A stretch of 47,554 nt of DNA, from assembly GCA_023819255.1 (NCBI GenBank), contig JAMWBU010000013.1, positions 1 to 47,554 of the forward strand, in the 5' to 3' direction. The stretch comes from Candidatus Omnitrophota bacterium (GTDB lineage Bacteria; Ratteibacteria; UBA8468; B48-G9; DTJG01). A program made the position numbers and the translations under genes. Below are positions 36,728-39,043 of this stretch, in pieces (the stretch's first letter is position 1; every line of letters begins with the position of its first letter). The notes under the pieces are model-generated. The model saw only the letters and a program-made list of their open reading frames with translations. It was not told where the DNA came from and searched no databases.

Positions 36728-36757
36728 TTGACCGACAAATATTTTTTGCTGTATAAT
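36728..36757 (+). promoter_or_regulatory. Promoter for the small basic-peptide gene
   Basis: TTGACC (36728-36733), 18-bp spacer, perfect TATAAT (36752-36757). The transcript would start near 36764, about 33 nt before the ATG at 36797. It is among the strongest promoters in the window. Confidence 0.7.
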
Positions 36758-36796
36758 AAAAGCCAGAATCCTGAACAATAACGCAAAGAAGGAAAA

Positions 36797-36871
36797 ATGA
36801 GAAGAAAGAAAAGAAAACTCAGATGGCGATCAAAAAGGGCAAATCACAGAAAAAAACCCGCAATGGGTTGA
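36797..36871 (+). CDS. 24-residue, very basic ribosomal bL37-like protein
   Basis: ATG at 36797, stop TGA at 36869-36871; an AGAAGGA ribosome site lies just upstream. The peptide MRRKKRKLRWRSKRANHRKK (then PAMG) has 13 Lys/Arg in 24 residues. The block SKRANHRKKP closely recalls SKANHGKRP of mycobacterial bL37, which is also 24 residues long and binds 23S rRNA near the peptidyl-transferase centre; that comparison is from memory. A strong TTGACC-18-TATAAT promoter serves it alone, and it fits exactly in the gap, stopping 2 bp before the convergent prs gene. Alternatives are another small rRNA-binding peptide or a chance ORF; promoter, ribosome site and composition argue against chance. Confidence 0.7.
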   Translation: MRRKKRKLRWRSKRANHRKKPAMG

Positions 36872-36873
36872 TT

Positions 36874-37803
36874 CTAAATAAAAAGAGAACTTACAGAGGT
36901 TTCTTCGTGTATCCTCCTGATGGCTTCTCCGAGCAGTTCTGCGACTGAAAGAACAATAAATTTTTCAGGAAGTTGAGGATGAGGAATTGTATCAGTTATA
37001 ATAATTTCTGAGATGTCTGATTCTGTAAGTTTTGGTACCGCGTGCCCTGAAAGAACTGGATGAGTGCAGCTCACAAGCACCCTCGAGGCGCCATTTTCAA
37101 GAAGCACCCGGGTTGCTTCTATCACCGTGCTTCCTGTTGAGATAAGGTCATCTACAATGATTACCTCGCATCCGTCCACTTCGCCGATAAGATGGGTCGC
37201 TTCAACTGAGTCCGGACCATCTCTTCTTTTGTCAACTATCACGAGACGAGAATTGATCCTTTTTGCAAACGCTCTAGCCATCTTTACGCTTCCGACATCA
37301 GGCGCCGCGATTACAGGGTTCTTCATACTCTTGCTTTTCAAATAATTTATGATCACAGGCGCGGCAAAGAGATGATCGACAGGAATATCAAAAAAACCCT
37401 GTATTTGAGGAGCGTGAAGGTCCATTGTAAGTATTCTCTGTGCGCCTGCAGCCACCAGAAGATTTGCGATAAGTTTTGCGGTAATTGGAACTCTTGGCCT
37501 CTCTTTTCTGTCCTGACGGGCATATCCATAATAAGGCACAACTGCGGTTATTCTTTGCGGAGACGCCCTTCTGAAAGCATCAAGCATAACAAGCAGTTCC
37601 ATTATGTTTTCATTCACTGGTGAACAGGTGGGCTGGATAATAAAAACATCTTTTCCCCTGACATTTTCCTCAATCTTGACGGATATTTCGCCATCATTGA
37701 ATCTTGAAACTTCAATCTGTCCCAGAGGTTTTTCAAGAAATTTGCATATCTTTTCGGCAAGGGGTTTATTCGAGTTGCCTGTAAAAATCAAACAATTATT
37801 CAT
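36874..37803 (-). CDS. prs: Ribose-phosphate pyrophosphokinase
   Basis: 309 residues from the ATG at 37803 behind GAGGAG; the start overlaps the glmU-like stop by 4 bp. It makes PRPP for nucleotide, His and Trp synthesis. Motifs: FTGNSNKPLAEKICKFL, SRFNDGEISVKIEENVRG, FIIQPTC, MDAFRRASPQRITAVVPYYGYARQDRK split over residues 84-110 (ATP flexible loop), MDLHAPQIQGFFDIPVDHL, and the PRPP-binding VIIVDDLISTGST. Position after spoVG and glmU matches the Bacillus order. Last gene of the 43.9-36.9 kb operon. Confidence 0.97.
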   Translation of the reverse strand: MNNCLIFTGNSNKPLAEKICKFLEKPLGQIEVSRFNDGEISVKIEENVRGKDVFIIQPTCSPVNENIMELLVMLDAFRRASPQRITAVVPYYGYARQDRKERPRVPITAKLIANLLVAAGAQRILTMDLHAPQIQGFFDIPVDHLFAAPVIINYLKSKSMKNPVIAAPDVGSVKMARAFAKRINSRLVIVDKRRDGPDSVEATHLIGEVDGCEVIIVDDLISTGSTVIEATRVLLENGASRVLVSCTHPVLSGHAVPKLTESDISEIIITDTIPHPQLPEKFIVLSVAELLGEAIRRIHEETSVSSLFI

Positions 37804-38549
37804 ATTTTTCTCCTCAGACTTAAAAAATATTGTTCGGCTCTTTTCAGGTCTTCCGGAGTGTTTATGCCTATTGTTTCCTCTGGCGCAGGGGTTGTCCATG
37901 ACGCCACTTTTTTTCCGGTCGATACGAAATTTCCTATAACATCGGTCAGATAGTATTCTTTTTTTACCGGGTCTGGTTTTATTTGTGCGAGGGCTTCGAA
38001 AAGAGCGTCTTTTACAAATATATAAACGCCAGCATTGATTTCCTTGATTTGTTTTTCTTTCTCGTTTGCGTTCGCCTGTTCAACAATTCTTATTATTTCG
38101 CCTGAATTATTTCTTATTATTCTGCCGTACCCGTACGGATTATCAATTATTGCGGTGAGAAGTGTGCAATGGGCGCGAAGGTTCCTATGCGTCTGCCGTA
38201 GAGCTTTTAATGTATCAGCTGTTAAAAAAGGGACATCCCCGCAAAGAACAAACACATTTCCTGAGAAATTTGAAAGAACAGCCTCAGTCATCATTACCGC
38301 GTGTCCTGTGCCCAGAAGTTGCGTCTGTTCGACAAAAGTTACATCTTCATTTTTTAATTCTTCAATCACTTTCTCCTTTTGAAATCCGATTACAACAATG
38401 ATTTTTGCGAGATCGCATTGTTTTAGTGTGCCAATAAGATGGACCAACATTGGTTTGCCAAGTATTCGCATCAATGTCTTTTGATTTTCCCCGCCAAGCC
38501 TTTTGCCGTATCCGGCAGCCAGTATTATTGCCGTTGTTTGAACATCCAT
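37800..38549 (-). CDS. glmU: GlmU-like UDP-GlcNAc pyrophosphorylase, nucleotidyltransferase domain only
   Basis: 249 residues from the ATG at 38549; longer upstream starts would run into the tRNA-Gln gene. N-terminal GlmU domain: ILAAGYGKRLGGENQKTLMRILGKPMLVHLI, VVVIGFQKEKVIEEL, VEQTQLLGTGHAVMMTEAVL, VFVLCGDVPFLTADTLKAL, NPYGYGRIIRN, and EINAGVYIFVKDALFEAL. It joins UTP and GlcNAc-1-phosphate. The left-handed beta-helix acetyltransferase half is absent, so GlcN-1-P acetylation must come from another protein. It lies 15 bp after tRNA-Gln and has no visible ribosome site. Order spoVG-glmU-prs supports the symbol. Confidence 0.85.
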   Translation of the reverse strand: MDVQTTAIILAAGYGKRLGGENQKTLMRILGKPMLVHLIGTLKQCDLAKIIVVIGFQKEKVIEELKNEDVTFVEQTQLLGTGHAVMMTEAVLSNFSGNVFVLCGDVPFLTADTLKALRQTHRNLRAHCTLLTAIIDNPYGYGRIIRNNSGEIIRIVEQANANEKEKQIKEINAGVYIFVKDALFEALAQIKPDPVKKEYYLTDVIGNFVSTGKKVASWTTPAPEETIGINTPEDLKRAEQYFLSLRRKI

Positions 38550-38644: not shown

Positions 38645-39043
38645 TTAATTTCCTGTACTCTCTTTTCCGGTGGTGTCGCTTTGTTTTTGCTGATTATATT
38701 GTTCAACAATTTTTTTCTGCAGATAATCCCGGAATTGAGTGTTTATTGGATGAGCAATGTCCTTATGCTGCTGCGCCCCTGTCTTCTGATTTTTTTGCTC
38801 CGCCGTCTTTATTTCCGCGCCGCATTGTCCGCAGTATTTGTTTGTTACGGGATTCTTGAAATTGCATCTGGGACACGGTTTTTGCATCTTCCTGCTGGGC
38901 ATGGCTATAAAAAGGCCATTTTTACCTTCAATGACCCGGATTTCGCGGATGACAAAAGAATTGTCAAATGTCACAGAGGCGTATGCGCGTAATCTACTAT
39001 TCGGTTTGTTGATTGGCGATATTCTTGTTTCAGTTATTTCCAT
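38645..39043 (-). CDS. spoVG: SpoVG-family protein with inserted zinc ribbon
   Basis: 132 residues, against ~90-100 for SpoVG. The N-terminal part is typical (MEITETRISPI...LRAYASVTFDNSFVIREIRVIEGKNGLFIAMPSRK in residues 1-52) and the C-terminal part resumes at HKDIAHPINTQFRDYLQKKI (93-112). Between them, residues ~53-92 hold a zinc ribbon with Cys57-x2-Cys60 and Cys71-x2-Cys74 (CPRC...CGQCG) and a Gln/Lys-rich linker. SpoVG is a nucleic-acid-binding regulator; the ribbon could add a binding surface. AGGAGG site; overlaps ispE by 14 bp; followed by tRNA-Gln, glmU and prs. Confidence 0.9.
   Translation of the reverse strand: MEITETRISPINKPNSRLRAYASVTFDNSFVIREIRVIEGKNGLFIAMPSRKMQKPCPRCNFKNPVTNKYCGQCGAEIKTAEQKNQKTGAQQHKDIAHPINTQFRDYLQKKIVEQYNQQKQSDTTGKESTGN

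Follow-up and report, generated by a model that had tools for sequence, protein, structure and literature searches.

A near-invariant 24-codon gene convergent on prs in an order of uncultured bacteria, probably encoding a bL37-type ribosomal protein

Introduction

The ribosomal protein bL37 has been called specific to Actinobacteria or mycobacteria in structural papers (PMC5876184, PMC10085706, PMC10618245), and its pocket is made of 23S/5S rRNA, namely H39-H42, H72 and H89 (PMC5876184, PMC10085706). The bL37 proteins of Mycobacterium smegmatis, M. tuberculosis and Cutibacterium acnes (NF047428; PDB 5o60_3, 7kgb_v, 8crx_V) have 24 residues and are encoded by stand-alone genes; about half of their residues are Lys or Arg, and a basic N-terminal half is followed by an ANHxKxP segment (ANHGKRP in bL37). 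Two other small basic elements have been reported in the same pocket, an extension of uL30 in Borrelia and the 22-residue CLaSP of Coxiella (PMC10618245, PMC13392368). Here, we describe a short gene from a Candidatus Omnitrophota bacterium whose product shares the size, composition and ANHxKxP segment of these bL37 proteins.

Results

Gene locus

The window is the whole stretch of DNA analyzed, 47,554 nucleotides of contig JAMWBU010000013.1, and belongs to a 2.02 Mb assembly in 78 contigs. The features of the locus are as follows.

36728..36757, + strand: sigma-70-like promoter (-35 TTGACC at 36728-36733, 18 bp, -10 TATAAT at 36752-36757; 11/12 consensus matches)
~36764, + strand: expected transcription start, predicted from the promoter
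36787..36793, + strand: ribosome-binding site AGAAGGA, upstream of the ATG
36797..36871, + strand: probable bL37-like gene, 24 codons and a TGA (ATG 36797-36799, TGA 36869-36871), identified by conservation, purifying selection and bL37 kinship
36839..36859, + strand: ANHRKKP, codons 15-21, the motif common to bL37 (ANHGKRP)
36855..36869, - strand: weak terminator-like hairpin, five pairs and then a T-run, within the 3' end of the small gene
36874..37806, - strand: prs, ribose-phosphate pyrophosphokinase (Pfam), a conserved convergent neighbor

The small ORF reads ATG AGA AGA ... GGT TGA and is translated as MRRKKRKLRWRSKRANHRKKPAMG. With Lys and Arg at 13 of its 24 residues (54%), it is the only one among the window's 328 ATG ORFs of 15-60 aa to contain at least 50% of these two residues. 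The original prediction, made from the sequence of the window alone, had described a strong promoter, a ribosome-binding site and a product of 24 residues that is more than half Lys/Arg, and these elements were all found as described. It had also placed the end of the ORF 2 bp before prs; this distance to the prs stop codon (36874) is correct, but the orientation had been left out. Since prs lies on the opposite strand, the two genes stand tail to tail and do not form one operon.

Three promoter-like sites were counted in 401 bp, against 0.9 expected from shuffles. The identical boxes, TTGACC-18-TATAAT, precede the gene in a close relative (G002); promoter boxes were not recognizable in all congeners of the window genome. 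In most congeners, the ATG is preceded by purine-rich stretches of the AAGGA or GGAG type. The hairpin on the minus strand, one found where 0.4 were expected and of doubtful significance, is possibly the prs terminator, in which case the last codons of the small gene may serve both strands. At 38645-39043 (-), the window also encodes a member of the SpoVG family whose C-terminus carries a zinc-ribbon-like stretch (Pfam SpoVG, and DZR below the cut-off).

Among 41 genomes searched, the small gene was found in 22, all from the order of the window genome, with 83-100% identity over all 24 residues. The search of related genomes that had been proposed as a check thus returned conservation of all 24 codons in 22 genomes rather than its absence. 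A profile search of the phylum (35 genomes) recovered the same 22 genomes and nothing else convincing, and a scan of IMG/VR found no relatives of the peptide. As had been predicted, the gene is unannotated: no Pfam or NCBIfam model annotates the peptide.

Relationship to bL37

The peptide has the traits of the bL37 type, as it is a short, stand-alone, basic protein (24 aa in 22 genomes, within the range of 24-32 aa) with a C-terminal motif of the ANHGKRP type. The likeness of its SKRANHRKKP block to the mycobacterial SKANHGKRP, on which the original prediction was built, turned out to be weak when taken alone, and kinship by profile search was obtained only through intermediate sequences. With the window peptide as a single query, Pfam, NCBIfam and PDB gave no family above noise, and a direct hhalign comparison with bL37 reached a probability of 41. 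Pairwise identity to bL37 is 43-48%, with ANHxKxP as the common element, a similarity that is only suggestive since 0.5-1.7% of the shuffles with matched composition score at least as high. It should be noted that the shared core amounts to only ~12 residues, that Lys/Arg-rich sequences easily resemble each other, and that the helix part is offset from actinobacterial bL37 by a gap of one residue.

When the 22 members were scanned against NCBIfam (18,950 models), seven touched the bL37 model NF047428 (best E 0.27), and the remaining matches were a weak one to NF047429, also bL37, and chance matches to IscB. The best member scored 11.5 bits against the mycobacterial model NF047428 (cut-off 30 bits) and 10.1 against the planctomycete model NF047429 (cut-off 40 bits). 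Neither model accepts the bL37 of the other lineage at its cut-off either; both are therefore lineage models, and the window gene, falling below both, is filed under neither. That bL37 is best known from Actinobacteria, as had been stated, is right, but NCBIfam already holds a planctomycete model, so its presence beyond this phylum is in itself no novelty.

A search profile built from the window group together with bL37 sequences, a composition that favors bL37 similarity, retrieved short ORFs in unrelated lineages (MGARKKKKNKLRWRSKRANHGKAPCSRGKK, MRKGTGRRGSKIRWRSKKANHGRRPCIGKRK, MSKGKHKKCQKLRWRSKKANHGSRPNKGK, MRKTRHKKRHKLKWKSKKANHGTKPCAGRR and MGRKNRNRKKRKNKLRWSSKKASHRKLPGMSKVS) that share the motif KLxWRSKKANHGxxP, as well as bL37 of the planctomycete type and of Actinobacteria. 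An ORF of this intermediate type is present in 12 of 14 genomes of the G314 phylum, often after a Shine-Dalgarno-like stretch. The low-scoring matches in G373, G244, G127 and similar genomes were discarded as chance matches inside other frames. One family member, at L071:1501-1578 (G242), reads MSKRKRRGKLK-TGA-RSKKANHGRKPNLG and has a TGA at the otherwise invariant Trp codon; the neighboring ORFs of G242 contain 15 TGG and no TGA codons, and five relatives from its phylum have no match to this member. The in-frame TGA may reflect a sequencing error, a decayed gene or recoding. For a 30-aa intermediate, AlphaFold returned a model of low confidence (pLDDT 63), which was set aside.

Because the intermediates were first found with a profile that contained bL37, each link was tested separately. 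Against a profile of the window group only, the intermediates scored 20-31 bits, and the best of 20,000 composition-matched shuffles reached 15.9. In the reverse direction, a profile of the intermediates gave ten window-group peptides 30-41 bits, again above all 20,000 shuffles. Of six planctomycete and actinobacterial bL37 sequences compared with the intermediate profile, five were beaten by 0-5 of 20,000 shuffles and the sixth by 25. Seven members, six from the G314 phylum and the one of G091, scanned against the same 18,950 NCBIfam models, matched only the two bL37 models, in register, with E values of 0.004-1 and scores below the cut-offs. A family profile free of bL37, searched against 177,635 PDB sequences, gave six matches at E<=10, five of them bL37 sequences and the sixth Tetrahymena mL102, and its hhalign comparison with bL37 reached a probability of 91 (E 1e-6). 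Each of these tests is modest by itself; in combination, they make it likely that the window peptide and bL37 are homologous.

A different explanation would be that the peptide is a tiny ribosomal or RNA-binding protein of separate origin that has converged on an ANHxKxP-like loop, much as Coxiella CLaSP occupies the pocket with an unrelated sequence. The weak direct similarity would fit such convergence, and so would the occupancy of the bL37 pocket by both CLaSP, which has no substantial identity to bL37, and the Borrelia uL30 extension (PMC13392368, PMC10618245), since the pocket then seems to attract unrelated basic peptides. We nevertheless regard it as unlikely, because graded intermediates combine the KLxW(R/S)SKKA of the window group with the ANHGKRP of bL37, and because the database-wide searches yielded bL37 only, to which PDB adds mL102.

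Conservation and selection

All 22 copies in the order start with ATG, comprise exactly 24 codons without an indel and have their stop directly after codon 24. Fourteen of the 24 columns are invariant, and the W, H, N and P positions are fixed or almost fixed: ANH(R/G)K(K/R)P is found in most copies, with ALH in two of the 22 and G in place of P in three. Differences per codon position are 0.14, 0.09 and 0.42, the third position thus changing three to four times as much as the first and second, and pN/pS over the 22 genomes is 0.107, an approximate ratio because synonymous sites are near saturation. Each of the 22 copies lies convergent to prs, with a gap of -4 to 166 bp that is mostly <=10 bp. 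Six genomes of the order are without the peptide and have no prs match either, so its absence there is best read as assembly gaps. In the sister orders f4 and f5 (seven genomes, prs present), profile searches detected no copy, and no equivalent gene lies downstream of prs at three of the seven loci; as the prs end was located at these three only, absence from the two orders rests on the profile searches. The small ORF is a real, conserved, unannotated gene under purifying selection.

In many genomes of family f2 (loci L011, L012, L017 and others), the bL37-like gene is immediately preceded on its strand by a Lys/Ala-rich, histone-H1-like ORF; in three of them, the stop of this ORF and the start of the gene overlap as ATGA, which suggests translational coupling. 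The arrangement could be taken to mean that the peptide is a basic nucleoid protein of the H1 type or a remnant of these preceding genes. This is very improbable, as the upstream ORFs are repetitive and variable, no such ORF precedes the small gene in the window, and the peptide is nearly invariant with its W, H, N and P held, a constraint that H1 tails are not known to show. Least probable of all is a conserved DNA or RNA element that encodes no protein, such as a prs terminator on the other strand: the weak hairpin with its T-run does overlap the 3' codons, but third-position changes dominate, the ORF keeps the same start, length and stop between variable flanks and at a variable distance from prs, and other lineages have related ORFs with no prs next to them.

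uL30 context

On the ribosome, bL37 has uL30 as a neighbor, which normally braces the adjoining surface. No uL30 was detected in any of the 35 genomes of the window's phylum, with a control search that succeeded in 13 of 14 reference genomes, and in the spc operons that were read (L061-L066), uS5 is directly followed by uL15. Neither uL30 nor an extension of the Borrelia type is therefore available for that area, and the bL37 pocket is not taken by a uL30 N-terminal extension here. Replacement of uL30 as the sole reason for the gene was considered and rejected. The sister orders f4 and f5 lack both, so the peptide is not simply a substitute for uL30, and G065, G091, G314 and G177 have both, as does the actinobacterium G143; in these five genomes, no long Borrelia-like N-terminal extension of uL30 was evident.

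Discussion

Our preferred reading, to which we give a probability of roughly 0.85, is that the product of the small gene is a large-subunit ribosomal protein of the bL37 type. The bL37-like ribosomal peptide of the original prediction is upheld as to kinship, by way of the bridging profile, the PDB search and hhalign, while binding to the ribosome, position and role are deduced from that kinship. With uL30 missing, and with the pocket and role of bL37 as published, we infer the same pocket and role for the window peptide. The basic N-terminal part, RRKKRKLRWRSK, would fold into a short helix, with the ANHxKxP segment as a loop, and both would occupy the rRNA pocket that H39, H40, the H41/H42 junction, H72 and H89 form below the 5S rRNA tip. 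By linking 5S rRNA with the buried side of H89, behind the peptidyl transferase center, the peptide would stabilize the H89/5S region and its assembly, and it may be one of few protein contacts near a surface that lacks uL30.

The profile comparisons support placing the peptide, as a bL37 variant, in a larger family whose core reads KLxW(R/S)SK(K/R)ANHxxxP. We lean towards the view that bL37 as a whole is a patchily retained bacterial ribosomal family defined by this core, present in several candidate phyla and with a descendant, mL102, in ciliate mitoribosomes; it would have been overlooked because its members are 24-34 aa long. A near-invariant gene of the bL37 type throughout a uL30-less order, in the majority of genomes from a second phylum and as single occurrences elsewhere would make the pocket protein far more widespread, and the intermediates unite the two known bL37 models. 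The gene also exemplifies a class that annotation pipelines overlook.

Compared with the bL37 of NF047428, the new group has its own W10 and L8, one residue fewer before ANH and a C-terminal MG. The planctomycete bL37 (NF047429) begins with MAK and has a similar core, RKLKKANHGKRP; its bearers G169 and G306 have no detectable uL30, as here, but the protein, 32 aa long, is shorter in its N-terminal part and ends in a basic tail. The best PDB match of the bL37-free family profile is mL102 of the Tetrahymena mitoribosome (6z1p chain AQ), in which residues 68-79, KKANHGARPCSS, match the family core (E 0.018). This protein differs in having 109 aa, of which only the loop part matches, and in belonging to a mitoribosome without 5S rRNA. 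From its place between central protuberance and stalk, it extends as far as the A-site acceptor stem (PMC7326499), which we judge to be the same neighborhood as the bL37 pocket; this location together with the match means that mL102 may be a mitochondrial bL37. The Borrelia element differs in being part of uL30 and CLaSP in its sequence, whereas here there is no uL30 and the element has a gene of its own. Taken together, bL37, the uL30 extension, CLaSP and perhaps mL102 suggest that the pocket behind H89 has been filled again and again.
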